Below are positions 13,480 to 41,457 of a stretch of 42,614 bases of DNA, in pieces. The position numbers and the translations under genes were made by a program. The stretch covers positions 1 through 42,614 of the forward strand of contig JACDDZ010000002.1 of the NCBI GenBank assembly GCA_013816695.1. Reading direction: 5' to 3'. The DNA comes from Gemmatimonadaceae bacterium (lineage in GTDB: Bacteria; Gemmatimonadota; Gemmatimonadetes; Gemmatimonadales; Gemmatimonadaceae). The number at the start of each line of letters is the position of its first letter. Within the stretch, counting starts at the first letter, position 1. The notes beneath the pieces were generated by a model. That model searched no databases. It was not told where the DNA came from and was given only the letters and a program-made list of their open reading frames with translations.

Positions 13480-13489
13480 AGCGATACAA

Positions 13490-13573
13490 ATGAATCAAGA
13501 GCAACTACCCATGAGGAAATTCTCAATCCTTGGCGGCGGCCAGCTTGTCATGGACTCAAGGCGACTAGGCTAA
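13490..13573 (+). CDS. Possible micro-ORF (27 residues), probably a remnant
   Basis: An ATG frame (MNQEQLPMRKFSILGGGQLV...) fits between the methyltransferase and Nudix genes. The segment KFSILGGGQLV resembles the first beta-strand and glycine turn of a nucleotide-binding fold, so it may be the stub of a lost gene. No strong ribosome-binding site and no homologue known to me. Confidence 0.2.
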   Translation: MNQEQLPMRKFSILGGGQLVMDSRRLG

Positions 13574-13578
13574 GCATT

Positions 13579-14100: not shown

Positions 14101-14105
14101 CAATT

Positions 14106-17917: not shown

Positions 17918-19669
17918 GTGAACAAGCTTTCCAGCCTTTTAAGCGCGAAATATCGCCGGAGCATATTCACTCTGCTACTCTTGATGATCATCGGCATGAT
18001 CCTCGAGATGGCAGGAGTTGGGCTGGTCATTCCCTTGCTCGTTCTCCTCTCGCGGGGAGACATCGCGACGCAATATCCGTTCACTGCACCTTTCCTCAGG
18101 GCTCTCGGTAATCCAGACCCCGAACGATTGATCGTTTACGGGATGGCAATCCTGGTTGCGGTCACCGGCATCAAGGTGGTGTTTCTCGCCTTTCTCGCCT
18201 GGGTGCAGGCGCGATTCGTATTCGGTCTCCAGGCGGATTTGTCCCAACGTTTGTTTGCGGGCTATTTGCGTCAACCTTACACTTTTCATCTGCAGCGCAA
18301 CACCGCACAGCTGATTCGGAACACGATGAGCCAGGCAAGCGGCGCTACGGCAGTATTCTCTTCAAGCCTCGTACTTACGACTGAGGTTCTGGTTCTTTTC
18401 GGTATCACGATCCTGCTAATGATCTTTGAGCCACTCGGCTCAATTCTTGTCGTTACCACCTTGGGCGCGGCGGGAAGCGCATTCAGCCGATATACAAAGC
18501 GACATCTGCTGCGGTGGGGTGACGCTGCGCAGCTTCACGAAGGAATGCGAATCCAGCACCTTCAGCAAGGGCTAGGTGGCGCGAAGGACGTAAAGCTTCT
18601 GGGCAGGGAGGATGATTTTCTTGCGCAGTACCGGTTTCACAACGATGGAAGCGCGCGAATCGGCTGGATTCACGCGACGCTGTCAGCGTTGCCTCGACTT
18701 TGGCTGGAGCTGTTGGCCGCAATTGGATTGGCGACCCTCGTGCTGGTGATGGTATGGCAGCGCAAGCCAGCTTCCGCGTTCCTGCCGGTCCTTGGACTTT
18801 TCACAGCCGCGGCGTTCCGGCTGATGCCTTCGGTGAATCGCGTACTTACATCTTCGCAGCAGATTCGGTTTTGGTCACCTGTAGTTGACAGTCTTGCCTC
18901 AGAATTTCAGCTCCTTTCGGGAGCCGTACCTCCGCGCTCGAGTCCGCCGCTGCCATTCAAGCATCAGCTGTCGCTCGAGGGAATTGGTTTTACTTATCCC
19001 GGCTCAGAGGGCGAGGTGCTTTCCGACGTCAGCATTGCAATTGAGTCCGGGACTTCTGTTGGATTCATTGGAGGAAGCGGTGCCGGTAAATCAACGCTGG
19101 TGGACATAATCCTCGGCTTGCTCCCGCCCCAACACGGCGCTGTTCGCGTCGATGGTGTCGATATCGCCTCGAATCTTCGCGGATGGCAGGATCAGATTGG
19201 CTACGTTCCTCAAAGTATCTACCTCACGGATGATACGCTGCGGCGCAACGTGGCTTTTGGATTGCCGGAAGGGCAAATCGACGATGAGGCCGTGCATCGC
19301 GCGCTTGGCGCTGCACAGCTGACGGAGTTCATCGCGGATCTTCCGGAGGGCGTTGAGACACGCGTCGGTGAAAGAGGCATCCGGTTGTCTGGGGGGCAGC
19401 AGCAGCGGATCGGGATTGCGCGCGCTCTTTATCATGATCCCCCGGTTCTGGTGCTCGATGAAGCAACGAGTTCGCTGGACGGAGCGACCGAGCGTGGAGT
19501 CATCGCGGCTGTGCGGGCACTCGAGGGTAGCAAAACCATTCTTATCGTCGCCCATCGAATCAGCACCGTTGAGCACTGCAGTCACCTTTTCCGGCTCGAA
19601 CATGGCAGGATAGTCGAGAAAGGCGAGACGTCGAGGGTACTTGGTGCCCTGGCAGCGAGAGGCGGATGA
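17918..19669 (+). CDS. ABC transporter, fused permease and ATPase (flippase/exporter type)
   Basis: 583 residues in the inner membrane. The N-terminal half has hydrophobic segments near residues 17-45, 72-97, 153-170, 172-187, 258-280 and 288-302, a six-helix exporter domain. The ATPase has Walker A GGSGAGKS (385-392), Q-loop VPQS, signature LSGGQQQR (490-497) and Walker B LVLDEA (511-516). This architecture matches MsbA/PglK-like lipid-linked oligosaccharide flippases. As the only transporter in the window, it is the likely exporter of the lipid-linked unit made by the surrounding genes. Start GTG. The stop overlaps the next ATG (ATGA). Confidence 0.88.
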   Translation: MNKLSSLLSAKYRRSIFTLLLLMIIGMILEMAGVGLVIPLLVLLSRGDIATQYPFTAPFLRALGNPDPERLIVYGMAILVAVTGIKVVFLAFLAWVQARFVFGLQADLSQRLFAGYLRQPYTFHLQRNTAQLIRNTMSQASGATAVFSSSLVLTTEVLVLFGITILLMIFEPLGSILVVTTLGAAGSAFSRYTKRHLLRWGDAAQLHEGMRIQHLQQGLGGAKDVKLLGREDDFLAQYRFHNDGSARIGWIHATLSALPRLWLELLAAIGLATLVLVMVWQRKPASAFLPVLGLFTAAAFRLMPSVNRVLTSSQQIRFWSPVVDSLASEFQLLSGAVPPRSSPPLPFKHQLSLEGIGFTYPGSEGEVLSDVSIAIESGTSVGFIGGSGAGKSTLVDIILGLLPPQHGAVRVDGVDIASNLRGWQDQIGYVPQSIYLTDDTLRRNVAFGLPEGQIDDEAVHRALGAAQLTEFIADLPEGVETRVGERGIRLSGGQQQRIGIARALYHDPPVLVLDEATSSLDGATERGVIAAVRALEGSKTILIVAHRISTVEHCSHLFRLEHGRIVEKGETSRVLGALAARGG

Positions 19670-20220
19670 AGGACTTTCCATCCAGAGAATCCGTTCATAC
19701 GGTTGCCTTCGACTTTGACGGCGTATTCACTAACAACAAGGTCTATGTGGACCAGGACGGCCGCGAGACTGTCCAATGCGACCGCCGTGATGGCCTTGGA
19801 TTCGATTTTGTCCGGCGCTTTCAGCGCGAAGGCAAGCTGAAGGCAAGCATGATGATTCTCTCTAAAGAGGGAAATCCTGTTGTGCTTGCCCGCGCAAAAA
19901 AGCTGAAGCTGGATTGCTTCTACGGCATCGGTGACAAGCTGACATTCATGACGGAACACCTCGGCAAGACTTTTCCGTCGAACAAGGCTCCTTTTGAAGG
20001 TCTCATTTATCTGGGGAACGACCTGAATGATCTGCCGCTGATGGTGCGCGCTGGTTTCTCTGTGGCCCCGGCGGATTCGCATCCCAGGGTTCTCGATATC
20101 GCCAGCCTTGTGCTTAAGGAGAATGGCGGGGACGGGTTCGTCCGTGCATTTCTCGAGCTCCTGCTCGATCTCGACAAACTTTCCAGTGAGGAAATTGATG
20201 AACTTGTATCTGATCGCTGA
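19666..20220 (+). CDS. HAD phosphatase, KdsC-like
   Basis: 184 residues, the size of 3-deoxy-D-manno-octulosonate 8-phosphate phosphatase. The nucleophile motif is AFDFDGVFTNN (14-24; D16, D18) and the metal motif GNDLND (117-122). KVYVDQDGRETVQCDRRDGLG matches the KdsC substrate loop. It lies between the ABC gene and a NeuB-like synthase, so it should dephosphorylate the ulosonic-acid phosphate made by that enzyme. The C-terminal 30 residues are an acidic extension whose coding DNA overlaps the next start by 23 nt. Other HAD substrates cannot be excluded. Confidence 0.83.
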   Translation: MKDFPSRESVHTVAFDFDGVFTNNKVYVDQDGRETVQCDRRDGLGFDFVRRFQREGKLKASMMILSKEGNPVVLARAKKLKLDCFYGIGDKLTFMTEHLGKTFPSNKAPFEGLIYLGNDLNDLPLMVRAGFSVAPADSHPRVLDIASLVLKENGGDGFVRAFLELLLDLDKLSSEEIDELVSDR

Positions 20221-21037
20221 AGTCGGCATTAACCACAACGGTAGCATGGACATCGCGAAGCAACTTATTTCCGCCGCCGCCGATGCAGGGTTTGATGCGG
20301 TGAAATTCCAGAAGCGAACTGTCGAAAAAGTGTACTCGAAAGAACTGCTAGACAGTCCCCGCGACAGCCCGTTTGGCACGACACAGCGAGACCAGAAAAT
20401 GGGTCTCGAGTTCGGCGCGGAGCAATACAAGGAGATTGATCGTTTCTGCAAGGAGGTCGGAATTGACTGGGGTGCGTCAGCATGGGACCCCGATGCGCAG
20501 AAGTTTTTGCGTGGGTTCGACCTCTCCTTCAATAAGGTTGCGTCCGCCATGCTCGGTCACAAACCATTTCTGCGCGAAGTTGCCTCCGATAAGAAGCGCA
20601 CCTTCATTTCAACAGGTATGGCAACACTCGACGAGCTCGATGAAGTCGTGAACTTTTTTCGCCAGGAGAATTGCCCGTTCGAGCTATTACATACCAACAG
20701 CACATATCCCATGAAGGAGGAGGACGCCAACCTTCTCTGCATTCCGATGTTGCGTGAGAGGTATGGCTGCGATGTTGGCTATTCAGGTCATGAAAGCTCG
20801 CTGCTAAAGGTTTGCGTAACGGCCGTTGCGCTTGGTGCAACATCCCTGGAGCGGCACATCACGCTGGATCGGGCCATGTATGGATCCGATCAGGCCGCGT
20901 CAATCGAGACCGCGGCCCTGCGCAACTTTGTTGAATCCGTGAGAAAAGTTCCGGAGCTGCTCGGCTCCGGAAAGAAGGAAATCAGCGATGCAGAGCTGGC
21001 CGTTCGGAAGAAACTTCGTGTCCAAGTGGATGGGTGA
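20198..21037 (+). CDS. N-acetylneuraminate synthase (NeuB)-family ulosonic acid synthase, short form
   Basis: TIM-barrel enzyme that should condense phosphoenolpyruvate with an aldose (phosphate) to give a 3-deoxy-ulosonic acid. The start is ATG 20198, preceded by GAGGAA, because MNLYLIAEVGINHNG is the family N-terminus; the longer open frame upstream is overlap with the phosphatase. Visible motifs are KFQKR (36-40), GYSGHE (194-199) and ERHITLDRAMYGSDQAAS (218-235). The second metal histidine of sialic acid synthase (in GPDH) is Q232 here. The protein ends at residue 279, so the C-terminal antifreeze-like domain of NeuB is absent. The synthase fold is sure; the product is probably not ordinary sialic acid. 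Confidence 0.82.
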   Translation: MNLYLIAEVGINHNGSMDIAKQLISAAADAGFDAVKFQKRTVEKVYSKELLDSPRDSPFGTTQRDQKMGLEFGAEQYKEIDRFCKEVGIDWGASAWDPDAQKFLRGFDLSFNKVASAMLGHKPFLREVASDKKRTFISTGMATLDELDEVVNFFRQENCPFELLHTNSTYPMKEEDANLLCIPMLRERYGCDVGYSGHESSLLKVCVTAVALGATSLERHITLDRAMYGSDQAASIETAALRNFVESVRKVPELLGSGKKEISDAELAVRKKLRVQVDG

Positions 21038-21755
21038 TGTTGTCGCGCTAGTGCCGGCGCGCGCTGGATCGAAAGGCGTGCCGGACAAGAATATCAGGCT
21101 TCTCGGCGGACGCCCGCTCATTGAGTGGACTATCGCGGCCTGCCGCCAATCGCAGCTGATTTCACGAACGATCGTCTCGACAGATTCTGGCGCCTATGCT
21201 GATCTCGCGATAACCATGGGTGCGGAGGCTCCGTTTCTCAGGCCCGCCAGCATCTCGGGGGACAGCTCGACAGACTACGATTTCATCGTACACGCGTTGG
21301 ACTGGTTCGCCGAACATGGTGATGAACCGGAGTTCATTGTCCATATGCGACCTACTACCCCTTTGCGGGACCCGCAGCTCGTGGATGAAGCAATAAGAAG
21401 CTTCCGAAATGCTGCCGATGTTACAGCACTTCGCTCTGTCCAGGAAATGTCGGAGTCGGCCTACAAGACCTTTGAGATTACTCCGCAAGGCCACTTGAAA
21501 ACTGTCGGCGGAAATACTTCAGATCTCGATTCGTCAAACAACGCACGGCAGACTTTTCCTCCGACCTTTTATCCCAATGGATATGTGGATGTGCTTTCTA
21601 CTGCATTCATTAGAAAATCAGGAAAACTCCATGGAAATCGCGTAATGGCCTTTACAACTCCAGTTACAACTGAAGTTGATACTGAGGATGATTTTGCTCT
21701 TCTCGAGTGGCATATCGCGAGCTCCACAGCCATTGCGAAGTTGGTTTTCGGCTGA
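21030..21755 (+). CDS. CMP-ulosonic acid (acylneuraminate-type) cytidylyltransferase
   Basis: 241 residues from ATG 21030 (MGDVVALVPARAGSKG), which overlaps the synthase end by 8 nt. An upstream in-frame start would add 14 non-conserved residues. NeuA motifs are VPARAGSKGVPDKNIRLLGG (8-27) and MRPTTPLRDP. It transfers CMP from CTP to the ulosonic acid. The order phosphatase-synthase-cytidylyltransferase is the standard set for making a CMP-nonulosonate or CMP-octulosonate. Its coexistence with a KdsB-like enzyme at 30340 implies two different CMP-sugars or two substrates. Confidence 0.85.
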   Translation: MGDVVALVPARAGSKGVPDKNIRLLGGRPLIEWTIAACRQSQLISRTIVSTDSGAYADLAITMGAEAPFLRPASISGDSSTDYDFIVHALDWFAEHGDEPEFIVHMRPTTPLRDPQLVDEAIRSFRNAADVTALRSVQEMSESAYKTFEITPQGHLKTVGGNTSDLDSSNNARQTFPPTFYPNGYVDVLSTAFIRKSGKLHGNRVMAFTTPVTTEVDTEDDFALLEWHIASSTAIAKLVFG

Positions 21756-21757
21756 TC

Positions 21758-23134
21758 ATGGCAGCTTACAATTTTTCCCGTGAACCGCTGCCGGTTCCCG
21801 CGGTTAGCACGTCGAACCGGACAATCCATACTCCCATCCCGACACCTGGAACCCGTGAAGTTCTCGAGCGTCTCGACGCTTACGAGTCGCGTTCCATGCA
21901 CGGGCAGCTTCCGATCGTTTGGGAACGAGCCGTCGACTTCAATGTTTATGATCGTGCGGACAACAAGTGGATCGACTTTACTTCAATGATCTTTGTTGCG
22001 AACGTCGGACATTCGAACGAGCGGGTTACGTCGGCAATGAAAGAGACCCTGGGCAACCCACTTTACGGATGCTACGCGTATCCAAATGAAACGCGTTCGC
22101 ACTATGTCCAAAAGCTTGTGGAGTTTGCTGGCGCTCCTTTTGAAAAAGCCTTCCTGCTTTCCGCGGGAACGGAGGCGACTGAGGCAGCCTTGAAGCTCAT
22201 GCGAATGAATGCGTCAAGGATAAAAAAGCGGCGGCGGGGAATAATCTGCGTAGAAGGCAACTGGCACGGACGGACGATGGGCGCGCAGATGATGAGCAGC
22301 AATCTCGAGCAGCGCGAATGGATCGGATATCAGGACCCGGATATTCATCATATCCCATTTCCGTATCCCTGGACGCTCAAGGGCATGAGTGGCGCGGCGT
22401 TTCTCGAGAAATCGCTCCAGAAACTAACAGACTCAGGCGTGGATCTCTCAAAAGATGTTGCTGGGTTCATGCTGGAAACTTTTCAGGGGTGGGGCGCGGT
22501 CTTTTACCCCGAAGATTTTGTCCGGAGCATTGAGTCCATTTGCCGCGCGCATGGAATCCTGCTCGCCTTCGATGAAATGCAGGCTGGGTTTGCGCGGACG
22601 GGCCGCGCATTCGGGTTTGAGCACTACGGGGTCACGCCCGATCTGATTGCATGTGGGAAGGGAATGGGCGGTGGTGTCCCACTGTCAGGCGTTCTCGGTC
22701 GCGCGGAAATAATGGATTTGCCGGACGTTGGAAACATGAGCAGCACCCACTCCGCGAATCCGCTGGTCTGTGCTGCCGGTCTTGCTGTCATTCAGGAGAT
22801 TGAGCGGCTTGACCTCATAACGGAAACGGCCCGAAAGGGTGATCTCCTCTTTCAGGAGCTTCGTACTTTGCAGGACGGGTCAGAAGGGCGGATCGCTGAT
22901 TGCCTCGGCAATGGTCTGATCGCTGCCGTCTTGTTCAAAGACCCCGCATCGGGGAAGCCCGATGGAGCCTTTGCCAGCAGGGTGGCCGAGCGGTGCATGC
23001 AAAAGGGATTGCTTGTTGTGCACACCGGACGGGAGTCAATCAAGATTGGCCCTCCTCTGACCATCACTGATGACGCGCTGCTTGAAGGTGTTGAAGTACT
23101 TGGCGAAGCGATGCAGGAGATAGCGCGCAAGTGA
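21758..23134 (+). CDS. Class III PLP-dependent aminotransferase
   Basis: 458 residues from ATG 21758, three bases after the previous stop. Motifs are SAGTEATEAALK (135-146), FDEMQAGFARTG (271-282, with D272 to the pyridine nitrogen) and ACGKGMGGGVPLSG with the PLP lysine K301. Class III enzymes act on terminal amino groups or aldehydes, unlike the DegT type normally used for nucleotide sugars. Within an ulosonic acid module, it could aminate a terminal (C8/C9-type) aldehyde. That is inference. The stop overlaps the GTG of the VOC gene. Confidence 0.86.
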   Translation: MAAYNFSREPLPVPAVSTSNRTIHTPIPTPGTREVLERLDAYESRSMHGQLPIVWERAVDFNVYDRADNKWIDFTSMIFVANVGHSNERVTSAMKETLGNPLYGCYAYPNETRSHYVQKLVEFAGAPFEKAFLLSAGTEATEAALKLMRMNASRIKKRRRGIICVEGNWHGRTMGAQMMSSNLEQREWIGYQDPDIHHIPFPYPWTLKGMSGAAFLEKSLQKLTDSGVDLSKDVAGFMLETFQGWGAVFYPEDFVRSIESICRAHGILLAFDEMQAGFARTGRAFGFEHYGVTPDLIACGKGMGGGVPLSGVLGRAEIMDLPDVGNMSSTHSANPLVCAAGLAVIQEIERLDLITETARKGDLLFQELRTLQDGSEGRIADCLGNGLIAAVLFKDPASGKPDGAFASRVAERCMQKGLLVVHTGRESIKIGPPLTITDDALLEGVEVLGEAMQEIARK

Positions 23135-23568
23135 TTACCGAAATCCGGCACACCGGATTAGTCGTGGCAAACCTGGATCGAGCGCTTGCGTTCTGGCGGG
23201 ATTTGCTGGGGTTCAGGGTAGTCCGCGAGATGGATGAAAAAGGCGACCATCTGGACGCATTCCTTGGCCTGAAGGACGTTCGCGTAACGACCGTTAAGCT
23301 CGCGGCGCCAGACGGCAATCTCATAGAGCTCCTAAAGTTTCATTCGCATGGCGACAGGGATGAATGGAAGGGATCGCCGCATTCGACCGGTTTCACTCAT
23401 GTTGCGTTTACAGTAGACGACTTGACGCATGATTACGAGAGATTGTCGGCCGCCGGTGTTGCCTTCATCGCGCCTCCGCAGCTGTCCCCCGACGGATCGG
23501 TTCGCGTCACATATTGTCGTGGGCCGGAAGGGGTCTTGCTCGAACTAGTGGAGAATCTGAAAAGCTGA
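23131..23568 (+). CDS. VOC (glyoxalase/bleomycin-resistance) family protein
   Basis: 145 residues with two beta-alpha-beta-beta-beta repeats: EIRHTGLVVANLDRALAFWRDLLGF (split here as EIRHTGLVVANLD and RALAFWRDLLGF) and FTHVAFTVDDLTHDYERLSAAGV. Metal-ligand candidates are H6, an E in NLIELLKFHS, H in THVAF and E in LLELVENL. Members include lactoylglutathione lyase and methylmalonyl-CoA epimerase, so an epimerisation or isomerisation of a keto intermediate is the likely role. Start GTG, GTGA overlap with the aminotransferase. Specific function unknown. Confidence 0.82.
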   Translation: MITEIRHTGLVVANLDRALAFWRDLLGFRVVREMDEKGDHLDAFLGLKDVRVTTVKLAAPDGNLIELLKFHSHGDRDEWKGSPHSTGFTHVAFTVDDLTHDYERLSAAGVAFIAPPQLSPDGSVRVTYCRGPEGVLLELVENLKS

Positions 23569-24272
23569 TGCCCGCGACACGCGATTACGTTGACGTCATT
23601 TATAACGAAAGGGATAGGCCGCTCACAGCTTACCCGGATAAACTCGCCCGCTATTTGTTCGACAGATATGAAATGTCGGCCGGCGTCAAACTGCTTGAAG
23701 TCGGCTGCGGCCGTGGGGAGTTCCTTCGCGGTTTTATTTCGGCGGGCGCTGAAGGTCACGGTGTCGACCGGTCGAGAGCCGCTGAAAAATATTGTCCTGA
23801 AGCGAGCCTAAAGATCGCCGACCTTGAGATCGAAGGGCTGCCTTACGCGGATGATGCGTTTGAGGTGGTGTACTCAAAGTCTGTAATCGAGCATTTCCAC
23901 AACCCGGAAAAGCTCGTCATGGAAATCTTCCGCGTCCTGAAGCCCGGCGGCCTCGTTTTGACGATGTGCCCTGATTGGGAGTTCAACTACAAGATGTATT
24001 TCGAGGATTACACTCATCGAACGCCATTTATGCAGGCATCGCTGAGGGATATTCATCTCATTCACGGCTTCGAGGATGTAAGGGTAGAGCGGTTTCGCCA
24101 GCTTCCCGTTCTGTGGTCACGGTCATGGCTGGTTCCGTTCTCCGAAATGACTCGCATCCTGGCGCCGGGTTTCCTGAAACCAAGGAACAAGTGGATCCGG
24201 TTCTCGAAAGAGATCATGCTTCTATCAAGTGCGCGTAAACCGTTGGCAGAACCGAGTCGCAGCACCACTTGA
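23568..24272 (+). CDS. Class I SAM-dependent methyltransferase
   Basis: 234 residues from ATG 23568 (TGATG junction); the open frame upstream is overlap with the VOC gene. Motif I is LLEVGCGRGEF (42-52), then GVDRSRAA for the ribose site, and YADDAFEVVYSKSVIEHFHNPEKLVMEIFRVLKPGG split as YADDAFEVVYSKSVIEHF and RVLKPGG. Typical methyltransf_11 protein of glycan clusters. It probably methylates the sugar acid of this module. The next gene overlaps by TTGA. Confidence 0.84.
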   Translation: MPATRDYVDVIYNERDRPLTAYPDKLARYLFDRYEMSAGVKLLEVGCGRGEFLRGFISAGAEGHGVDRSRAAEKYCPEASLKIADLEIEGLPYADDAFEVVYSKSVIEHFHNPEKLVMEIFRVLKPGGLVLTMCPDWEFNYKMYFEDYTHRTPFMQASLRDIHLIHGFEDVRVERFRQLPVLWSRSWLVPFSEMTRILAPGFLKPRNKWIRFSKEIMLLSSARKPLAEPSRSTT

Positions 24273-25114
24273 GTGCATCCGACCGCATAGGCTTTATGCA
24301 GGGACGATTTTCTCCTCTTTTGGACGGCCGGATTCAGGCCTTTCCGGTAGAAACCTGGCGAGAGGAATTTCTGGCAGCGGATGAGAGCGGTTTTCATTTG
24401 ATGGAATGGACGCTGGATTATGAGGGCTTGTATGAGAATCCCCTCATGACCGTAGAGGGCAGGGCGACGATCGCCGCGCTCAGCGCACAACACCGGGTTT
24501 TGATTCCTTCCCTGACGGGCGATTGCTTTATGCAGCGCCCCTTCTGGAAAATGGAAATGCCTGCAAAAAAAGAACTTCAGGCCGACTTCGATGCGATAGT
24601 AAGAGCATGCGCCTCGACAGGAATTGCCTTCGTGGTGGTGCCGCTTGTAGATCACGGGAAGCTGGACTCTGGAAGTCAGGAAGCGGATCTACTCGATTTT
24701 CTTGTCTCCAGGTGCGATTCGCTCAAAACCTCGGGCGTGAAAGTCCTGTTCGAGTCAGATATGGATCCGGCGCAGCTGGGAGCTTTCATCGCCAAGCTGG
24801 ATCGAGACGCATTTGGCATCAACTACGATCTGGGCAATAGCGCAAGTCTCGGCTACGACCCATTCGAGGAGATGGCGAGCTACGGCCATCGCGTGGCCAA
24901 CGTGCACGTAAAAGACAGGAAACGCGGTGGTACTACAGTTCCGCTAGGCATGGGAGACGTCGATTTCCCGAGAGCGTTTAGTGCACTGGCCAAGGCCGGA
25001 TATTCCGGAAATTACATTCTTCAAACCGCGCGAGCTGCGGACGAGAATCACGATTCCGTTCTTTGCATGTATCGCGATATGACATTCGACTGGGTGACTG
25101 AAAGTGGAGCTTGA
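24269..25114 (+). CDS. TIM-barrel sugar phosphate isomerase/epimerase
   Basis: 281 residues of the xylose-isomerase-like TIM-barrel family. IGFMQGRFSP (7-16) is the typical first strand, which requires the TTG start at 24269 rather than the internal ATG. Later strands show LFESDM, YDLGNSA and VHVKDR, with the acids and histidine used for metal binding in this family. Likely interconverts keto and aldo forms or epimerises a sugar intermediate. It overlaps both neighbours by a few bases, consistent with one pathway unit. Substrate unknown. Confidence 0.82.
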   Translation: MSASDRIGFMQGRFSPLLDGRIQAFPVETWREEFLAADESGFHLMEWTLDYEGLYENPLMTVEGRATIAALSAQHRVLIPSLTGDCFMQRPFWKMEMPAKKELQADFDAIVRACASTGIAFVVVPLVDHGKLDSGSQEADLLDFLVSRCDSLKTSGVKVLFESDMDPAQLGAFIAKLDRDAFGINYDLGNSASLGYDPFEEMASYGHRVANVHVKDRKRGGTTVPLGMGDVDFPRAFSALAKAGYSGNYILQTARAADENHDSVLCMYRDMTFDWVTESGA

Positions 25115-25856: not shown

Positions 25857-25858
25857 TC

Positions 25859-29552: not shown

Positions 29553-29572
29553 CTGCGTTCCGGTTTCTATAA

Positions 29573-30343
29573 ATGAAGATCGTTCGTTACGAAACACAGC
29601 CGAGCGCAAAGTTCGGCTGCATTGAGGACGGCATGGTCTGGGAGCTTGACGGTGACCCACTTGTCGACCCCAGGCGCGGGCAAAAGGTGGCGATGCTCGA
29701 CTCAGTCACCTTGCTCGAACCTTGCCGACCGGCAAAAGTCGTCGCGATTGCAATCAACTATGTAGGCATCGAAGGGTTTTCCCCCACGATGCTCGAACCG
29801 ATGATCTTTGTGAAACCGGGATCGAGTGTGTGCGCCCCAGGGACTCCGGTAGTGAATCCTTTTCCGGATCTCCCGTGGTGGGGGGAAGCAGAGTTGGGAG
29901 TAGTAATTAAGTCGCGGCTGAAGAATGCGTCGCATGAAGAGGCAGTCGCTGCCGTGCTTGGCTTTACTGTTGGAAACGATGTTACAACGGAAAATGTTGA
30001 GGGCCGCGATCACCACCTCGCGCGCTCGAAATGCGCCGATTCCTTCTGCCCGATTGGTCCCTGGATCGATACCGAGTTTGATTCCAGCAATTGCCTGATC
30101 GAAGCTGTGCAAAACGGCGAAGTCATCCGCAGCGCGCGATCCAGCCAGCAATTCTGGCAGTGGCCTCGCATTCTTGTAGAAGTCTCCAAGTGGATGACGC
30201 TTGAGCCATGGGATGTGGTCCTGACAGGCAATCCCCCGGATACGGTGGGCATGCGATTCCTGAGTGACGGCGATGTTTACACGGCTCGAATTGGAGGACT
30301 TGGGGAAATCACCAACCAGTTTTTTAGCAAAAGGAATCAATGA
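29573..30343 (+). CDS. Fumarylacetoacetate hydrolase (FAH)-family protein
   Basis: 256 residues with the FAH catalytic core: WGEAELGVVI (metal ligands E105, E107), GNDVTTENVEGRD (D136), SFCPIGPWI and LTGNPPDTVGM near the end. The family covers hydrolases, decarboxylases and hydratases or dehydratases of 2-keto acids. Adjacent KdsB-like and HpcH/HpaI aldolase genes also handle 2-keto-3-deoxy acids, so a hydratase or C-C bond step on such an acid is the simplest guess. It overlaps kdsB by ATGA. Confidence 0.83.
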   Translation: MKIVRYETQPSAKFGCIEDGMVWELDGDPLVDPRRGQKVAMLDSVTLLEPCRPAKVVAIAINYVGIEGFSPTMLEPMIFVKPGSSVCAPGTPVVNPFPDLPWWGEAELGVVIKSRLKNASHEEAVAAVLGFTVGNDVTTENVEGRDHHLARSKCADSFCPIGPWIDTEFDSSNCLIEAVQNGEVIRSARSSQQFWQWPRILVEVSKWMTLEPWDVVLTGNPPDTVGMRFLSDGDVYTARIGGLGEITNQFFSKRNQ

Positions 30344-31113
30344 GAGTCGTAGTCGGAATACCTGCGCGCATGGGCGCCAGTCGTTTTCCGGGCAAACCCA
30401 TGGCGAAAATACTTGGCATGCCAATGGTGGAACACGTTTATCATCGCTGTGCGCTGGCAAAGGGGGTTGACGAGGTATTCGTTGCAACGTGTGATGACGT
30501 GATCAGGGATGCGGTGGAATCCTTTGGCGGAAATGTGTACATGACGCCGCCTGACATTCCTCGTCCTGGACTTCGTGTGGCCGAAGCTTGCAAGGCACAG
30601 TCGCTCGCCGATGACGACATTATTGTTGTTGTGCAGGGTGATGAGCCGCTTGTCGACCCGGGCATGATTCAGTTGGCAATCAAGCCTTTGCTCGACGATC
30701 CGACGCTGCAACTCGGAACACTGGTCTCTGAGGCAAACGAGGCTGAGTGGAATGACGTCAATGAAGTCAAAGTCGTTGCCGACCAAAAAGATCGCATCCT
30801 GTTCATGTCTCGAAGTCCAATTCCCTCGCGCACACGTGAGGAGATCGGGCCGAGACTCAAGCAGGTTGCAATTATGCCGTTCCGCAAGAAATTCCTTATC
30901 GAATTTCAGACCATGGAAATGACTCCGCTGGAGATCGCTGAATCGGTGGAGCTCCTCCGCGCGATCGAGCATGGTCTCGAAGTCCGTGCGATCCGGTCTC
31001 CGTTCAGAAGCATTTCGGTCGATACCGAGCCTGATCGACTGGAAGCCGAAGCTGCGATGGCGAAAGACAAGTATTTCCCGGATTACTCCGGCGCCGCGCG
31101 GCCGAAATACTAA
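30340..31113 (+). CDS. kdsB: 3-deoxy-manno-octulosonate cytidylyltransferase-like (KdsB)
   Basis: 257 residues. GIPARMGASRFPGKPM (6-21) is the CTP-binding loop and VVVQGDEPLVDP the conserved KdsB acidic motif. AAGG-type ribosome site (AAAAGGAA) precedes ATG 30340. It should attach CMP to Kdo or a Kdo-like acid. Placement inside a glycan cluster between an FAH protein and an aldolase, rather than with lipid A-core genes, suggests a capsule-type or modified substrate, as with KpsU. It may be redundant with, or distinct from, the NeuA-like gene at 21030. Confidence 0.84.
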   Translation: MRVVVGIPARMGASRFPGKPMAKILGMPMVEHVYHRCALAKGVDEVFVATCDDVIRDAVESFGGNVYMTPPDIPRPGLRVAEACKAQSLADDDIIVVVQGDEPLVDPGMIQLAIKPLLDDPTLQLGTLVSEANEAEWNDVNEVKVVADQKDRILFMSRSPIPSRTREEIGPRLKQVAIMPFRKKFLIEFQTMEMTPLEIAESVELLRAIEHGLEVRAIRSPFRSISVDTEPDRLEAEAAMAKDKYFPDYSGAARPKY

Positions 31114-31125
31114 TCCTTATCGCGA

Positions 31126-31905
31126 ATGACGAAAACAAATAAAATCAAAGCAGCTCTTAAAGCTGGCAAACGCGTTTTTGGATCTTGGTCGATGCTGTCG
31201 TCGCCACAGGTCGTAAACGTCATGGCTCAGTCCGGCCTCGACTTCTTGATCATAGATCTCGAGCATGGGCCCACAACATTCGAGACGGTCGAGGCCCAGC
31301 TCTATGGTGTTGAGGCTGAGGGATGCACGCCAATAGTACGCCTTGGGGAGGCAAGCGATACCACAATTCTCCACGTCCTGGAAATTGGCGCGCAGGCCAT
31401 TCTCGTGTCACACGTTTCCACGGCCGCGGAAGCGGAGCGAATTGTCCGCGCTGCCAAGTACCCCCCGACCGGCGAGCGCGGACTCTCTCCGTTTACACGC
31501 AACCACGGATTCTCGGATGCGGATCTCAAATCCAAGCTCCAGCGAGCCAACGATGAAATGTTTGTCGGGGTTCTCGTGGAAGGCCCAGAAGGAATCGCGA
31601 ATCTCGATGCAATTGCATCGGTACCGGGACTCGATCTTGTTTACATAGGTGTCTACGACGTTTCCCAGTCGGTTGGAGCGCCGGGCGACTTGATGCATCC
31701 GGAAGTTGTACGCGTGGTAAAGGATTGCGTGCGCATAATTGAAGGCCATGGACTCGCAGCGGGATCCGTCGGCCGGGATCGCGACTACCTGCAGCTGCTC
31801 GCTAACGCGGGCTTCCGCTTTTTGTCGTATCGCGCGGACAGTGCAATTCTGCGCGATGGTCTGGCCGCCGCCCGCGTCTGGTACGATGAGCTGAATGTCA
31901 GCTAG
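31126..31905 (+). CDS. HpcH/HpaI-family aldolase
   Basis: 259 residues, class II pyruvate-dependent aldolase fold. Family marks are FLIIDLEHGPTT (40-51), a metal-binding acid pair around VLVEGPEG, and IGVYDVSQSVG near the C-terminal strand. These enzymes join pyruvate to an aldehyde or split 2-keto-3-deoxy acids. Twelve nt after a KdsB-like gene, it could build a 3-deoxy-ulosonic acid from pyruvate by a route not needing phosphoenolpyruvate. The direction of the reaction cannot be seen from sequence. It overlaps the next gene by 11 nt. Confidence 0.84.
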   Translation: MTKTNKIKAALKAGKRVFGSWSMLSSPQVVNVMAQSGLDFLIIDLEHGPTTFETVEAQLYGVEAEGCTPIVRLGEASDTTILHVLEIGAQAILVSHVSTAAEAERIVRAAKYPPTGERGLSPFTRNHGFSDADLKSKLQRANDEMFVGVLVEGPEGIANLDAIASVPGLDLVYIGVYDVSQSVGAPGDLMHPEVVRVVKDCVRIIEGHGLAAGSVGRDRDYLQLLANAGFRFLSYRADSAILRDGLAAARVWYDELNVS

Positions 31906-32965
31906 GCAGGTGGACGACGTTTTGAAGGTTGGAATTGCCGGATACGGAACCGTGGGACGAATTCGTCACCAGTTCTGCACTGAGCATCCTCAACTGAATG
32001 TGGTTGCCGTCTGCGACCAGAGCTTTTCCGTTCCCGTTGTGACTTCCGAAGGGGTTCGCTGCTGGGGGACTTATGACCAGCTGCTGGAAGAAGAACTCGA
32101 TGTACTTTTTGTCTGCCTTCCGAACTACCTCGCTCCTGTCGTGACTGTAGCCGGTCTGGAGGCAGGGCTTCACGTGTTTTGCGAGAAGCCGCCTGGCCGT
32201 GACCTCGGGGATATCGAACGGGTGATAGCAGTCGAAAAGAGGTGTCCTGGGCAAAAGCTGATGTTCGGCTTCAACCACCGGTACCATGATTCGGTTCGCG
32301 ACGCTCTTCGTGTGATCAAGAGCGGCGAGCTCGGTGGGGTGCTGAACCTTCGCGGCGTCTACGGAAAATCAAAGATCATCAGGTTCGGGAACGACAAGGA
32401 TTGGCGCACGCAGCGAGAGCTCGCGGGAGGGGGCATTCTCCTTGACCAGGGCATTCACATGGTAGACATGATGCGTCTGTTCGCCGGCGAGTTCACCGAT
32501 ATCCATAGTTTCATTTCCAACGACTATTGGCATCATGATATCGAGGACAATGCTTACGCCCTGATGCGTACGGCGGACGGCATCGTTGGAATGCTGCATT
32601 CCTCAGCGACCCAATGGAGGCACCGCTTTCAGCTGGACATTACGCTGGAGCAGGGGGCGATCCTCCTCGGAGGAATCCTCTCGAGTACGCGTAGTTACGG
32701 CGCAGAGACGATTACTATAGTGTACTCCGCAGAGAACGACGGGGGAGACCCGCGTGAGGTGATGACTCGCTACAACGAGGATCACTCCTGGCGGGATGAG
32801 GTATACGATTTTGCGGCTTCAGTCCTCGACGACAAGCCGATCACGGCCGGGTCCTCCGCTGAAGCGCTTAAGACAATGCAGCTCGTTTACAGGATTTACT
32901 GCGCTGATCCCGAATGGCGCGAACAATTTGGACTCACCGATAGGATCGCAGGGAAAAAAGCGTGA
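31895..32965 (+). CDS. Gfo/Idh/MocA-family oxidoreductase
   Basis: 356 residues, full family length. Rossmann motif VGIAGYGTVGRIRH (12-25), CEKPPGRD, FGFNHRYHDSVRDA and LLDQGIHMVDMMRLF are classical. ATG 31895 overlaps the aldolase; internal GTG or TTG starts at 31910 and 31922 are possible and would still keep the Rossmann motif. Likely NAD(P)-dependent oxidation or reduction of a sugar or cyclitol ring carbon. Followed with GTGA overlap by a GmhA-like isomerase. Confidence 0.86.
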   Translation: MSARQVDDVLKVGIAGYGTVGRIRHQFCTEHPQLNVVAVCDQSFSVPVVTSEGVRCWGTYDQLLEEELDVLFVCLPNYLAPVVTVAGLEAGLHVFCEKPPGRDLGDIERVIAVEKRCPGQKLMFGFNHRYHDSVRDALRVIKSGELGGVLNLRGVYGKSKIIRFGNDKDWRTQRELAGGGILLDQGIHMVDMMRLFAGEFTDIHSFISNDYWHHDIEDNAYALMRTADGIVGMLHSSATQWRHRFQLDITLEQGAILLGGILSSTRSYGAETITIVYSAENDGGDPREVMTRYNEDHSWRDEVYDFAASVLDDKPITAGSSAEALKTMQLVYRIYCADPEWREQFGLTDRIAGKKA

Positions 32966-33576
32966 ACGAAATTGTGGCACTTTACAAGAAATCATCTGAC
33001 CCGGCGGAATTTGCGGCCGGATACCTGGGATACCTGACTCGGGTGCTAGCGCAAATGGACACCAAGTCGATTGGGAAGTTCATCGAGGCTCTCGTTGACG
33101 CACGGGAGCGTGGAGCTCGCGTTTATTTCATTGGCAATGGAGGCAGTGCTTCCACTGCCAGTCACTTCGCCAATGATCTGGGGATCGGAACGCGCACCTG
33201 GCACAAGCCACTCCGTGCTGTAAGCCTCTGTGACAACTCGGCAGTTATGACCGCACTCGCGAATGACTACGGGTACTCGGAGATATTCATCCGCCAGCTG
33301 CAAGTGCAGATGTTACCGGGCGATGTCGTGGTCGCGATCTCCGCTTCCGGCAACTCACAGAACATTGTCGACGCAGTTCGGTACGCAAACTCGAATGGCG
33401 CAACGACCGTGGGCTTGACAGGCTTTAGCGGAGGTGAGCTTGGGAAGATCTCCAACCTGGTTGTCCATGCGCCAACGAATGTTGGAGAGTATGGTCCCGC
33501 AGAGGATGTTCACATGATTCTCGACCATCTCGTTGGGGCATTTCTTCTGAACTTTTGCGCGGTGGAACCAGATTGA
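32962..33576 (+). CDS. SIS-domain phosphoheptose isomerase-like (GmhA-type)
   Basis: 204 residues. FIGNGGSASTASHFANDLG and VVAISASGNSQNIVDAVRYA are standard GmhA motifs, and DVHMILDHLVGAFL provides the C-terminal histidine helix. It is closer to canonical GmhA than the SIS gene at 2092. The neighbour at 34270 is a dehydroquinate-synthase-like cyclase, a family that includes enzymes acting on sedoheptulose 7-phosphate, so a C7 sugar phosphate is a reasonable substrate here too. Start GTG; stop overlaps the next TTG. Confidence 0.84.
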   Translation: MNEIVALYKKSSDPAEFAAGYLGYLTRVLAQMDTKSIGKFIEALVDARERGARVYFIGNGGSASTASHFANDLGIGTRTWHKPLRAVSLCDNSAVMTALANDYGYSEIFIRQLQVQMLPGDVVVAISASGNSQNIVDAVRYANSNGATTVGLTGFSGGELGKISNLVVHAPTNVGEYGPAEDVHMILDHLVGAFLLNFCAVEPD

Positions 33577-34289
33577 GCCTTGCGCTTGCCGGACGTCGCG
33601 CTCTGGTAACGGGCGGAACCCGCGGTATTGGTCGTGCTGTCGTTGAGCGCCTGGTGGCGCAGGGTGCCGTCGTCATTGCAACGGGGACAAAGCAGGCAGA
33701 AGTGCCTGCCGGCTGCGAGCTGCGTATCGTGGATTTCGCGGACCGGTCCGCAACGGAAGGATTCGCAGCAGATGTCGAGACACTCAAGATTGACATTCTG
33801 GTCAATAATGCAGGAATAAACAGGATCGCACCATTCGCTGAGATTGCGTCAGAGGATTTTGACAGGGTGCAGGAAGTGAACGTGCGCGCCGCGTTCCTGC
33901 TCTCGCGTTCGGTTTTATCCCACATGCGAAAACAGAAGTGGGGACGTATTGTCAGTATTACCTCGATCTTCGGACTCGTGGGCCGGGAACAGCGTGCATC
34001 ATACTCGGCGAGCAAGTTCGCACTCGATGGGATGACAGTCGCGCTGGCGGCCGAAGTTGCCGCGGATGGAATTCTCGCGAACTGCGTCGCTCCCGGCGTT
34101 ATCGAAACGGACCTGACCCGTCAGGTGCTGGGTGAGGACGGCATCGCCGAAGTCCTGACTCGTGTTCCCATGCGCAGGCTCGGCCGTCCGGAGGAAGTCG
34201 CAGCGCTTGTGGTATGGCTGGCCGGACCCGAAAACACGTTCATCTCAGCGCAGAACATTGCAATCGACGGTGGATACACCCGCGTCTGA
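33573..34289 (+). CDS. SDR-family oxidoreductase (classical, FabG-like)
   Basis: 238 residues from TTG 33573 (TTGA overlap with the isomerase); a TTG at 33555 would add six residues. GTRGIGRAVVERL is the cofactor motif, NNAGINRIAPF and ITSIFGLVGREQRASYSASK (split: ITSIFG, YSASK) give the catalytic serine, tyrosine and lysine, and IAIDGGYTRV ends the protein. All key residues are intact. Its 3' end overlaps the cyclase gene by 20 nt. Probable reductase in the same short pathway as the cyclase and isomerase. Confidence 0.85.
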   Translation: MSLALAGRRALVTGGTRGIGRAVVERLVAQGAVVIATGTKQAEVPAGCELRIVDFADRSATEGFAADVETLKIDILVNNAGINRIAPFAEIASEDFDRVQEVNVRAAFLLSRSVLSHMRKQKWGRIVSITSIFGLVGREQRASYSASKFALDGMTVALAAEVAADGILANCVAPGVIETDLTRQVLGEDGIAEVLTRVPMRRLGRPEEVAALVVWLAGPENTFISAQNIAIDGGYTRV

Positions 34290-35352
34290 TCGCTTCGTCG
34301 TCCAGTCGCACACTGGACCCTACGAAGTCGAGTTCGCTCGCGGCGCCATTTCGCGAATTGCAGGGACGGTACCGGCAAAGTCACACTTCTTCGTTGATGC
34401 AAACGTGGCGAGACTTTACGCGAAGGACCTGCATCATGTAGTTGAGTCATCGTCTGTAATGGTGATCGAGGCTACCGAGGCCAACAAATCCCTGGAACGA
34501 TTCCCCGAGTATGTAGAGCACCTCGTGTCGCAGGGTGTGCGCCGGGGCCAAGTACTGATTGCGATCGGGGGGGGGATAACCCAGGACATCGTTTGCTTTC
34601 TGGCGGCGACGGTTCTGCGAGGAATTCCGTGGTGGTTCTATCCTACCACATTGCTGGCCCAGGCCGATTCGTGTATTGGCTCGAAGAGCTCGATCAACGT
34701 CGGCCGGGCAAAGAACATCGTTGGGACTTTTACTCCACCACGGAGGGTAATCATTGATCCTGCGATGCGCGAAACACTGAATGAGGTGGATGTGCGGTCA
34801 GGGTACGGTGAGATGCTCAAAGTTCATGCGATCGATGGTCCGGATGCTTTCGACAGGATTGCGGCCGACTATCCGAGGCTGGGAGAGCCGACGGTGTTGA
34901 CGCATTATATCCGACGATCACTCGAGATCAAACGGAATCTCATTGAGCAGGATGAGTTCGATCAGGGTCCGCGCAACGTGATGAATTACGGGCATACATT
35001 TGGGCACGCACTGGAATCTGCGACCGATTTTCGGATTCCGCATGGCATTGCAATCAGCATCGGTGCCGACATGGCAAATCATGTTGCTGTCACAATCGGG
35101 AGGATGGACATTGCCCATTACCGGCGAATGCACCCGGTGCTTCGAGCTAACTTTTCCGGATTCGAACGCGAGCCGGTCGGCCTTGACGCGTTCATGCAGG
35201 CGATCGCGAAAGACAAGAAAAATTCGAACGACACTCTGACGCTCATATTACCGGATGACCACGCACGTATCGGACTGGTGCGCTATCCTAATGATGCGCG
35301 CTTTAGGGAGATTTGTCGGCAGTACCTGGAAGACCGCCGATCATGGTTATAA
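34270..35352 (+). CDS. 3-dehydroquinate synthase-like sugar phosphate cyclase
   Basis: 360 residues from GTG 34270; a TTG at 34258 is the alternative, and both lie inside the SDR 3' end. IAIGGGITQDIVCFLAATVLRG (split: IAIGGG 97-102, QDIVCF) is the NAD glycine loop, TTLLAQADSCIGSKSSIN (126-143) the substrate loop, and E181, H242/H246 (YGHTFGHALES) and H258 (HGIAISIG) are the metal ligands. Conserved DHQS has D-S-S-V-G-G-K-T-G; this protein reads DSCIGSKSS. Being far from any shikimate gene, it is more likely a secondary cyclase acting on a ulosonate or heptulose phosphate. The glycine loop is encoded by a run of nine G. Confidence 0.84.
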   Translation: MDTPASDRFVVQSHTGPYEVEFARGAISRIAGTVPAKSHFFVDANVARLYAKDLHHVVESSSVMVIEATEANKSLERFPEYVEHLVSQGVRRGQVLIAIGGGITQDIVCFLAATVLRGIPWWFYPTTLLAQADSCIGSKSSINVGRAKNIVGTFTPPRRVIIDPAMRETLNEVDVRSGYGEMLKVHAIDGPDAFDRIAADYPRLGEPTVLTHYIRRSLEIKRNLIEQDEFDQGPRNVMNYGHTFGHALESATDFRIPHGIAISIGADMANHVAVTIGRMDIAHYRRMHPVLRANFSGFEREPVGLDAFMQAIAKDKKNSNDTLTLILPDDHARIGLVRYPNDARFREICRQYLEDRRSWL

Positions 35353-35361
35353 CCATGATCG
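35338..35361. promoter_or_regulatory. 24-bp perfect palindrome across the cyclase stop codon
   Basis: The half-site CGATCATGGTTA (35338-35349) is followed directly by its reverse complement (35350-35361). In RNA it would form a 10-bp stem with a TATA loop. It overlaps the TAA stop at 35350-35352 and no U-run follows, so it is not a standard terminator. It could be a processing or attenuation hairpin or a protein-binding site in the 67-nt gap before the dehydrogenase gene. Confidence 0.6.
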
Positions 35362-35419
35362 AAGACAGGAAAATCTCAGGACGGATCCTCGGCTTGAACC
35401 TCGCCGCTACCCGCGATAA

Positions 35420-36367
35420 ATGATCCGAACAGGCAATGTTGCGGTCTGCTCAAGGTCGTTTTCCAGTCATCCGATACTTCGCAGCGAACTTCTCGAGCGT
35501 TATCCGGCCGCAACTTTTAACGACAGGGGCGTACAACTCTCAGGTGACGCGCTCGTCGAGTTTCTCAAAGGGCACGATAAGGCTATCACTGCACTCGAAA
35601 AGATCGATGCCGACGTGCTTGCACGCCTTCCCGAGTTAACCGTAATAAGCAAGTACGGGGTCGGCCTTGATATGATTGATCTCGCGGCCATGAATCGGTT
35701 CGGCAAGCGTCTTGGTTGGACGGCAGGTGTGAACCGGCGATCAGTCGCGGAACTGGTCATTTCATTTGCGATTGCGATGCTCCGTCATGTTCCGGCCACT
35801 AGTCGCGAGGTAATGGCCGGATCCTGGCGCCAGCGGGTCGGAGGCCATTTGTCAGGCCGAACTGTTGGCATTATTGGTTGCGGAAATGTCGGACGTGATC
35901 TTGTTCTCCTTCTGAAGCCTTTTGGGTGCCGAGTACTCGCGTATGACATCGTGGACCAGCCTGAGTTTTATGGGGTCCACAACGTCGAAAAGGCAGGATT
36001 GGACGCACTTCTTGAAATGTCGGACATCGTCACGCTCCACGTTCCACTCGATGCGAGCACACGGCGAATGTTGGATCCATCCCGTCTTGCGCGAATGAAA
36101 AAGGGTGCGATCCTTTTAAACCTTGCTCGCGGCGGACTCGTAGATGAAAGGGTGATGAAGGAAATGCTTCGTCAGGGGGATCTGGCGGGGGCGGCGTTCG
36201 ATGTGTTCGAAGTCGAGCCGCCCCTCGATATGGAACTGCTTTCGCTTCCAAATTTTCTTGCCACCCCCCACATCGGGGGAAGTGCAGAAGAAGCCGTGTT
36301 AGCCATGGGTCGGGCGGCTATCGACGGACTCGACATCAATGAAATCCCTGGAATTCCTCCTGGCTGA
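35420..36367 (+). CDS. D-isomer-specific 2-hydroxyacid dehydrogenase
   Basis: 315 residues, phosphoglycerate/lactate dehydrogenase family. The NAD motif is GIIGCGNVGRD (150-160). The catalytic triad is R237 (LARGGLVDE), E266 (DVFEVEPP) and H284 (TPHIGGSAEEA). No C-terminal ACT domain. It is the last small-molecule enzyme of the 19.7-36.4 kb module and may reduce a 2-keto acid or oxidise a 2-hydroxy acid serving as the aldolase or synthase substrate. It is separated from the cyclase by the palindromic gap, and its 3' end overlaps the next gene by 29 nt. Confidence 0.86.
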   Translation: MIRTGNVAVCSRSFSSHPILRSELLERYPAATFNDRGVQLSGDALVEFLKGHDKAITALEKIDADVLARLPELTVISKYGVGLDMIDLAAMNRFGKRLGWTAGVNRRSVAELVISFAIAMLRHVPATSREVMAGSWRQRVGGHLSGRTVGIIGCGNVGRDLVLLLKPFGCRVLAYDIVDQPEFYGVHNVEKAGLDALLEMSDIVTLHVPLDASTRRMLDPSRLARMKKGAILLNLARGGLVDERVMKEMLRQGDLAGAAFDVFEVEPPLDMELLSLPNFLATPHIGGSAEEAVLAMGRAAIDGLDINEIPGIPPG

Positions 36368-41432: not shown

Positions 41433-41457
41433 CGCGCTTAACGAAAAGGGAATCGCA

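Follow-up and report, generated by a model that had tools for sequence, protein, structure and literature searches.

Probable pair of adjacent gene modules for CMP-activated acidic sugars in a surface-glycan locus of a Gemmatimonadaceae bacterium

Introduction

The described systems that stand closest to the locus reported here are the pathways to the cytidine monophosphate (CMP) derivatives of pseudaminic and legionaminic acids, those to CMP-3-deoxy-D-manno-oct-2-ulosonic acid (CMP-Kdo) and CMP-2-keto-3-deoxynononic acid (CMP-Kdn), the 8-amino-Kdo pathway, and the systems of the sugar phosphate cyclase superfamily. With these we compare a run of genes at positions 19666–36367 of a 42,614-nucleotide stretch of DNA from a Gemmatimonadaceae bacterium (GenBank assembly GCA_013816695.1, contig JACDDZ010000002.1), which whole stretch we call the window and whose genes cited below lie, from 17918 onwards, on the plus strand. 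An earlier interpretation made from the letters alone (the sequence-only reading) had taken that run for a single composite module and proposed a new sugar acid. One or more new acidic sugars do remain plausible, two ulosonic-type CMP-transferases being present, but we hold with moderate confidence that the run is made up of two neighbouring modules, inherited separately, each for a CMP-activated acidic sugar, within one long surface-glycan series. Module A has the order KdsC–NeuB–NeuA–aminotransferase–VOC–methyltransferase–TIM–SDR–SDR, and module B the order FAH–KdsB–HpcH–MocA–GmhA–SDR–AroB-like–D2HDH, followed by a protein of the TIGR04326 family (TIM, a TIM-barrel enzyme; SDR, short-chain dehydrogenase/reductase; FAH, fumarylacetoacetate hydrolase family; D2HDH, D-2-hydroxyacid dehydrogenase).

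Module A resembles the pathways to CMP-pseudaminic and CMP-legionaminic acid in having a NeuB and a PseF-like enzyme, but both lie far below the equivalog cut-offs, and the hallmark early genes, whose absence the sequence-only reading had already noted, were not found in the window scans: the window proteins scanned with NCBIfam did not reach the cut-offs of the PseB/LegB-type dehydratase models TIGR03589 and TIGR04180, nor that of TIGR03588 (PseC), and no GNAT family was listed for those scanned with Pfam, a few proteins having been scanned with Pfam only. As in the CMP-Kdo and CMP-Kdn pathways, a phosphatase of the KdsC/KDN-9-P type stands beside a synthase dependent on phosphoenolpyruvate and a CMP-transferase; this phosphatase, however, is below its cut-off (76.7 versus 180 bits), and the KdsB-like enzyme belongs to the second module, together with an aldolase and an AroB-like enzyme. 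The 8-amino-Kdo pathway (KdnA/KdnB) includes KdnB, an iron-type alcohol dehydrogenase, for which we found no counterpart in the window beyond an Fe-ADH_2 trace on the AroB-like protein (19.7/28 bits). With the sugar phosphate cyclase systems the locus shares a cyclase-superfamily enzyme beside dehydrogenases, but the profile of that enzyme is closer to the dehydroquinate synthases than to 2-deoxy-scyllo-inosose (DOI) synthase or to ValA. We also considered, as an analogue, bradyrhizose, an O-antigen sugar whose genes are called unknown in PMC4743980. In agreement with the sequence-only reading, no published pathway with this gene set is known to us or appeared in the literature searched (mostly non-subscription), and at title level nothing fitting AroB-type genes in O-antigen loci or new ulosonic acids was found; module B is a widespread cassette, and we found no description of it there.

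Evidence for Two Modules in the Run

Scans against Pfam and NCBIfam bore out every gene named by the sequence-only reading, which counted 15 where the run holds 16 named enzymes, and brought to light three further genes inside the run that it had overlooked: methyltransferases at 23514 and 28497, and a TIGR04331 protein at 26692 that is probably a glycosyltransferase. The tight, overlapping arrangement was likewise confirmed, the run being a slice of a 25-gene plus-strand series (17918 to 42234) whose 24 junctions are all ≤67 bp and, with starts as listed, are overlaps in 18 instances, so that the run looks like part of one long transcription unit; promoter and terminator scans gave no excess over shuffles.

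To place the run among its relatives we used the best 80 of at least 582 confirmed stretches carrying an AroB-like gene (one genome per species), with up to 10 kb fetched on each side, some flanks being short, and searched whole the genomes of 20 of these loci, picked among the more similar; many of the 20 are draft metagenome-assembled genomes (MAGs), and contig identity in the relatives' genomes was deduced from coordinates. A large part of the gene set recurs in unrelated phyla, as the sequence-only reading had anticipated, but in relatives the run breaks into A and B, each of which is coherent; a single 15-gene block is rejected on account of that split. In 17 of the 20 genomes no strong match to the module A TIM gene was found, and a Coxiellaceae MAG (L006/L081) carries the two modules on different strands, separated by other genes over several kilobases. 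Among 369 genomes of the class of genome G010, the TIM gene was found in G010 alone, and the MocA gene in both G010 and G186; since G186 carries module B with no TIM match, B exists without A. The modules nevertheless co-occur more often than these samples would lead one to expect, the TIM gene being present in three of the 20 genomes with an AroB-like locus versus none of the 368 others of G010's class, the two sets of genomes not being taxon-matched.

Recurrence and Order of the Module B Genes

Six partners of the AroB-like gene were sought on its own strand in the 80 loci, and were matched as follows: SDR3, the SDR that precedes the AroB-like gene in the window, in 69, MocA in 33, a CMP-transferase of either type (KdsB or NeuA) in 32, D2HDH in 30, GmhA in 26, and HpcH in 14. 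At least four of the six were present in 32 loci, against 15.2 on average and 23 at most when the columns were shuffled among loci 2000 times, a procedure that ignores relatedness; all six were present in nine. The partner count was two-humped, with none or one in 41 loci, two or three in seven, and four to six in 32, although that spread may be partly due to ordinary aroB genes among the least similar loci that have no partners. By record labels the 32 partner-rich loci span 12 phyla (Verrucomicrobiota, Elusimicrobiota, Pseudomonadota, Nitrospirota, Actinomycetota, Bdellovibrionota, Bacteroidota, Thermodesulfobacteriota, Chloroflexota, Omnitrophota, Chlorobiota, and Ignavibacteriota), many of them coming from MAGs, so that single phylum assignments may be wrong; some parts of this recurrent set have family names, and no known product was found for it. 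In 19 of the 20 genomes searched whole, the best MocA match (252–556 bits, all others being ≤165) was no more than 10 kb from the AroB-like gene; the best D2HDH match stood beside it in 14 of 20, the matches of G005 and G016, on other contigs, not being counted; and the best HpcH match did so in seven of the 13 genomes that had one.

The order FAH–KdsB–HpcH–MocA–SDR3–AroB–D2HDH is common to the window, the Coxiellaceae MAG, and G186, apart from GmhA and from insertions between FAH and KdsB. In the Coxiellaceae MAG all seven genes lie on one strand, with protein identities to the window of 61% (FAH), 65% (KdsB), 56% (HpcH), 65% (MocA), 51% (SDR3), 54% (AroB-like), and 41% (D2HDH); three short open reading frames (ORFs) separate FAH and KdsB, and a SIS gene lies upstream of FAH. 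In G186, whose GC content is 35% against some 55% in the window, the corresponding values are 62, 66, 57, 72, 59, 50, and 52%; two extra genes follow FAH, and D2HDH is followed by a 626-aa protein with a KLHP stretch and without a Pfam match. Such high protein identity across very different base composition suggests that the cassette may have moved as a unit between genomes. As a separate observation, the stretch of the Coxiellaceae MAG that separates the two modules contains a transposase/integrase (rve) gene (L081:11693–12508), which fits module mobility.

The AroB-Like Protein and Its Contexts

The AroB-like gene (34270..35352, its start set from the 360-aa database copy P0001) encodes a protein scoring 456.7 bits with TIGR04425, an AroB-related putative sugar phosphate phospholyase (cyclizing) family with a curated cut-off of 400, and 253.4 bits with TIGR01357, the model of true aroB, which is short of the cut-off of 305. 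The protein thus belongs to a named family, whose reaction is putative by the very name of the model and for which we found no assigned substrate; the cassette around the gene lies outside that model. Homologues numbered 7043 at E ≤1e-3 among 7995 candidates scored. Against solved structures, the family profile matched dehydroquinate synthases best (1.6e-61), followed by DOI synthase (4e-37) and then, at 5.1e-36, by the cyclase 4p53, identified as ValA in PMC4426668; that paper also mentions a 14-residue fingerprint of 2-epi-5-epi-valiolone synthase (EEVS), a sugar phosphate cyclase acting on sedoheptulose 7-phosphate.

Fourteen residues of the AroB-like protein align with the solved dehydroquinate synthases, and in an alignment of 79 relatives, from which L042 (labelled with both of the contexts described below) was left out, 13 of 15 checked positions were identical bar two gaps (R117, D133, K139, K148, N149, E181, K221, R235, N239, H242, H246, H258, and K316); the fourteenth aligned residue, K184, was His in 21 and Arg in two rows, and the position of I260 was variable. 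We take these residues to have the active-site and substrate-binding roles of their dehydroquinate synthase counterparts, and with those positions retained the catalytic machinery looks intact.

The family also occurs in a second setting, context II, which comprises 22 of the 80 loci (within L037–L074, mostly less similar), in which a thiamine-diphosphate (IlvB-like) enzyme adjoins the AroB-like gene. These loci have no MocA, GmhA, D2HDH, or KdsB match, and most have an SDR match; some carry an HpcH-like aldolase and others a sugar kinase and a DRE-TIM aldolase, the families of the thiamine-diphosphate enzyme, kinase, and aldolases having been read from sequence by eye, and the carriers include Lachnospiraceae, Mycobacterium ahvazicum, Methylomonas, and others. 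Context II apparently represents a different, uncharacterised pathway. The labels of contexts I and II are clustered on the tree, with eight changes of label I against 26.8 when shuffled, and do not form one clade each; since they were defined from partner genes, counts inside contexts are partly circular, and the 80-locus counts are fairer. Together the two contexts suggest that the AroB-like gene and its SDR are a common core of more than one sugar pathway. In a plasmid collection, 44 records matched the AroB-like protein, all at <60% identity, and among the 25 listed the existing annotations were aroB or 3-dehydroquinate synthase.

Other Enzymes of Module B

The KdsB-like CMP-transferase (30340..31113) has variant motifs: it scores 255.9 bits with NF009905 (cut-off 255) and 230.1 with NF003952 (cut-off 193), and only 130.2 with the equivalog TIGR00466 (cut-off 155.2). 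The motif SGTDR/SGTER of the two best solved KdsB chains is RPGLR in the window protein, and the SGT motif occurs in none of the 22 non-redundant KdsB-type sequences from AroB-like loci, the window included, L013 having the near-equivalent TGTDR. The SGT-x-R motif presumably contacts Kdo in KdsB; because SGT is lost across the group, we read the group as putative CMP-transferases for an acid other than Kdo.

The gene upstream encodes an FAH-family protein (29573..30343; PF01557, 134.7 bits) that is 61–62% identical to the Coxiellaceae and G186 copies and shares with them an IN(Y/F)xGI(E/D) loop, which differs from the usual FAH motif. Downstream lies an HpcH/HpaI class II pyruvate aldolase (31126..31905; TIGR02311, 178.6 bits, below the cut-off of 368.8), which aligns with solved 2-keto-3-deoxy acid aldolases and keeps the EH, R, E, and D positions that we assume to be catalytic. 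It is followed by a Gfo/Idh/MocA oxidoreductase (31895..32965; PF22725/PF01408), a GmhA-like SIS sugar-phosphate isomerase (32962..33576; PF13580; TIGR00441, 101.4 bits, below the cut-off of 209.45), and SDR3 (33555..34289; PF13561), whose match stands directly upstream of the AroB-like gene in 61 of the 80 loci. The last enzyme, a SerA-like D2HDH (35420..36367; PF02826, 175 bits), retains its R, E, and H positions throughout the 21 sequences aligned. A methyltransferase (28497..29552; PF13489) precedes the FAH gene. In a further observation, four loci (L007, L008, L010, and L016) carry beside the AroB-like cassette a recurrent set of a HisC-like aminotransferase, a second MocA match, a second KdsB subtype (RIYGI...CDSNR), and a methyltransferase, which set, with the HisC and methyltransferase members identified by eye, looks like another CMP-acid sub-cassette.

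Genes and Recurrence of Module A

Module A begins with a KdsC-like HAD phosphatase (19666..20220) that has the motif DFDGV in its translation and scores 76.7 bits with the KDN-9-P phosphatase model NF058599 (cut-off 180) and 72.8 with TIGR01670 (106.95). The NeuB-like synthase, listed from 20108 and with a conserved start at 20198 (20198..21037), reaches 229.9 bits with TIGR03569 (cut-off 399.65; model positions 2–276 of 329, so that the match stops before the last part of the model) and 166.6 with TIGR03586 (340.25), and thus neither the PseI nor the LegI-NeuB equivalog score; it is 71% identical to the copy in the Coxiellaceae locus L081. A NeuA/PseF-like CMP-transferase follows (20988..21755; TIGR03584); as to CMP-TRANSFERASES, the module A enzyme is closest to PseF (116.6 bits, below the cut-off of 205.7). 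Then come a class III aminotransferase (21707..23134; PF00202, 287 bits) and a VOC/glyoxalase-fold protein (23131..23568; PF00903), respectively 74 and 67% identical to their counterparts in an Undibacterium MAG (L083), a methyltransferase (23514..24272; PF08241), the TIM-barrel protein of the AP_endonuc_2 isomerase/epimerase/dehydratase type (24269..25114; PF01261), and two SDRs, both PF13561: SDR1 (25104..25856; YxxxK at 152) and SDR2 (25859..26698), the latter 58–69% identical in L081 and L083.

Whole or partial copies of this module were found in three of the 20 genomes, those with strong TIM homologues (the Coxiellaceae MAG, 54%; the Undibacterium MAG, 57%; and a Bacteriovoracia MAG, 46%), which in every case lie close to NeuA and SDR1; three others of the 20 had weak TIM matches only, and no TIM match occurred in the fetched flanks of the 80 loci. 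The Coxiellaceae order, KdsC–NeuB–NeuA–aminotransferase–TIM–SDR1–SDR2, matches that of the window, except that its aminotransferase is of class IV and the window's of class III, and the presence of unrelated aminotransferases in the same position speaks for a transamination within module A. The Undibacterium genes run NeuA (59%, truncated at the contig edge)–class III aminotransferase–VOC–methyltransferase–TIM–SDR1–SDR2, and the second gene after SDR2 (L083:6530–7699) encodes a polysialyltransferase-family protein (PF07388, 34.8 bits, cut-off 23.3), a candidate transferase for the module A product. The short Bacteriovoracia contig has NeuB–NeuA–SDR–TIM–SDR1 only.

Candidate Transferases

Each module is followed by the gene of a probable transferase. 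After module A lies that of a TIGR04331 (LIC12162-family) protein with a GT-B-like C-terminal half (26692..28500; 531.6 bits, cut-off 225), and after module B that of a TIGR04326 (LIC13510-family) protein with a GT-B-like C-terminal part and an invariant KxHP (36339..38234; 551.5 bits, cut-off 250); the two are the probable transferases for the products of A and B, respectively. Both thus belong to surface carbohydrate families, which NCBIfam labels o_ant_LIC, for O-antigen, the LIC being presumably that of Leptospira locus tags. In the literature searched, only Lic12162 was mentioned among the family and gene names, and a Leptospira rfb paper was without them. Against solved structures, a sequence search with the TIGR04331 protein gave no match at E ≤1.

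The HP motif takes part in the binding of CMP-Neu5Ac by bacterial sialyltransferases (PMC2169525) and is common to β-Kdo transferases (PMC10148158). A regular expression combining HP and S/T motifs, applied to ORFs of 480–750 aa, found 10 of 35 context-I, one of 22 context-II, and one of 22 other loci; because it missed the window's own TIGR04326 protein, it was not used as evidence.

Proposed Pathways and Their Alternatives

In module A, the NeuB-type synthase would add phosphoenolpyruvate to a phosphorylated aldose, the KdsC-like enzyme would take the phosphate off, and the NeuA-like enzyme would attach CMP, with the aminotransferase, the TIM-barrel enzyme, and the two SDRs responsible for amino and redox modification and the TIGR04331 transferase moving the sugar. 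In module B, a sugar phosphate would be turned into an unusual carbon skeleton by the SIS isomerase, MocA, SDR, AroB-like enzyme, and D2HDH, the AroB-like step consisting of an oxidation dependent on nicotinamide-adenine dinucleotide, a phosphate elimination, and probably a ring closure; the HpcH aldolase would then join that skeleton to pyruvate, giving a 3-deoxy-2-ulosonic acid, whose CMP derivative the KdsB-like enzyme would form and the TIGR04326 protein would transfer. What the data show directly is the gene content, the recurrence of the blocks, the aligned residues kept in the AroB-like, HpcH, and D2HDH proteins, the altered motif of the KdsB-like group, and the GT-B-like models; we infer all of the substrates, the reactions, the order of the steps, and the equation of the aldolase product with the KdsB-like substrate; no product structure is readable from sequence. 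For module B we put forward, tentatively and as one possibility, a carbocyclic or AroB-rearranged 3-deoxy-ulosonic acid, made by a shikimate-type cyclase, a pyruvate aldolase, and a dedicated non-Kdo CMP-transferase, a combination that the record labels place in 12 phyla.

Several observations weigh against the scheme of two modules and pathways set out above, the ring-closure problem and the scarcity of HpcH being its weakest points. A ring closure of the dehydroquinate synthase type on an ulosonic acid would consume the C2 carbonyl needed for CMP, so that the AroB-like and CMP steps cannot act in the obvious series, for which reason we put the AroB-like step ahead of that of the aldolase. 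In the fetched flanks, some of which are short, 66 of the 80 loci lack an HpcH match and 79 lack an FAH match, and the aldolase may therefore not be the general source of the acid; the best genome-wide match lay elsewhere than beside the AroB-like gene for HpcH in six of 13 genomes and for D2HDH in six of 20. Some carriers have a NeuA-type match in place of a KdsB-type one, and GmhA stands between MocA and SDR3 in the window only, being absent there in the Coxiellaceae MAG and in G186, on whose contig none was found. As to the transferases, the HP pair is invariant in TIGR04326 whereas TIGR04331 has no invariant HP pair, and the GT-B-like model matches of the two do not show the donor.

Some of these facts suit an alternative that we regard as rather unlikely, namely, that module B makes no ulosonic acid, the KdsB-like enzyme activating some other acid or a cyclitol derivative while HpcH, FAH, and D2HDH make a small 2-oxo or 2-hydroxy acid decoration. 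For it speak the frequent absence of HpcH and the lack of SGT in all 22 KdsB-type sequences of AroB-like loci, and D-2-hydroxyacid dehydrogenases normally act on small acids; but 2-ulosonic acids are the substrates for which the CMP-transferase family is otherwise known, 16 of the 80 loci have NeuA-type matches, the TGTDR of L013 is close to SGTDR, and the TIGR04326 family, encoded downstream, shares the HP pair with CMP-nonulosonic acid and CMP-Kdo transferases.

It seems to us improbable that, in line with the sequence-only reading, A and B follow one another in a single pathway that leads to one sugar. The adjacency of the modules in the window speaks for it, as does the enrichment of the TIM gene, at high similarity, in three of 20 genomes with an AroB-like locus over none of 368 others; the remaining 17 (many of them draft MAGs) lack a strong TIM match, however, G186 has B with no such match, A and B both come with a CMP-transferase of their own and are both followed by a probable glycosyltransferase, and the Coxiellaceae modules are on opposite strands.

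That spare shikimate and Kdo genes were gathered by chance in a glycan locus is very improbable, for although the AroB-like protein has the active-site positions of dehydroquinate synthase and the score of the KdsB-like protein is just sufficient for one KdsB subfamily, TIGR04425 is above and TIGR01357 below its curated cut-off, the joint recurrence of the partners extends, by record labels, to 12 phyla, and SGT is lost across the KdsB-like group.

If the reading of module B as the source of a new acidic sugar is true, that sugar may be common in environmental bacteria and have been missed through annotation of its genes as Kdo, sialic acid, or shikimate genes. Two named strains that are not MAGs, Mucilaginibacter segetis SD-g (L024) and Draconibacterium mangrovi GM2-18 (L036), carry all six partners, and their glycan is open to direct analysis.

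Surroundings of the Run

The surroundings of the run are those of a surface-glycan locus. They include a NusG-family antiterminator-like protein at 1552 (best UpxY, 92.2 bits, just below the cut-off of 100), epimerases, a PglK/MsbA-like ABC transporter (17918), below the family cut-offs, and a family 2 glycosyltransferase. Downstream, at 39191–42234, are a CDP-glucose 4,6-dehydratase, a DegT aminotransferase (245.2 bits with the PseC model, cut-off 423.5), and a glucose-1-phosphate cytidylyltransferase (41458–42234).

A second unusual sugar set occupies positions 1552–16249, upstream of the run, beginning with the antiterminator-like protein and including a SIS isomerase, a HAD phosphatase, a transaldolase (TIGR02134, above cut-off), an HldE-like protein in which the nucleotidyltransferase precedes the kinase, a nucleotide-sugar dehydrogenase, and E1 alpha and beta (pyruvate dehydrogenase-like) proteins. 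Between the E1 beta gene and the ABC transporter, at 16463–17587, lies the gene of a 374-aa protein without a Pfam or NCBIfam match.

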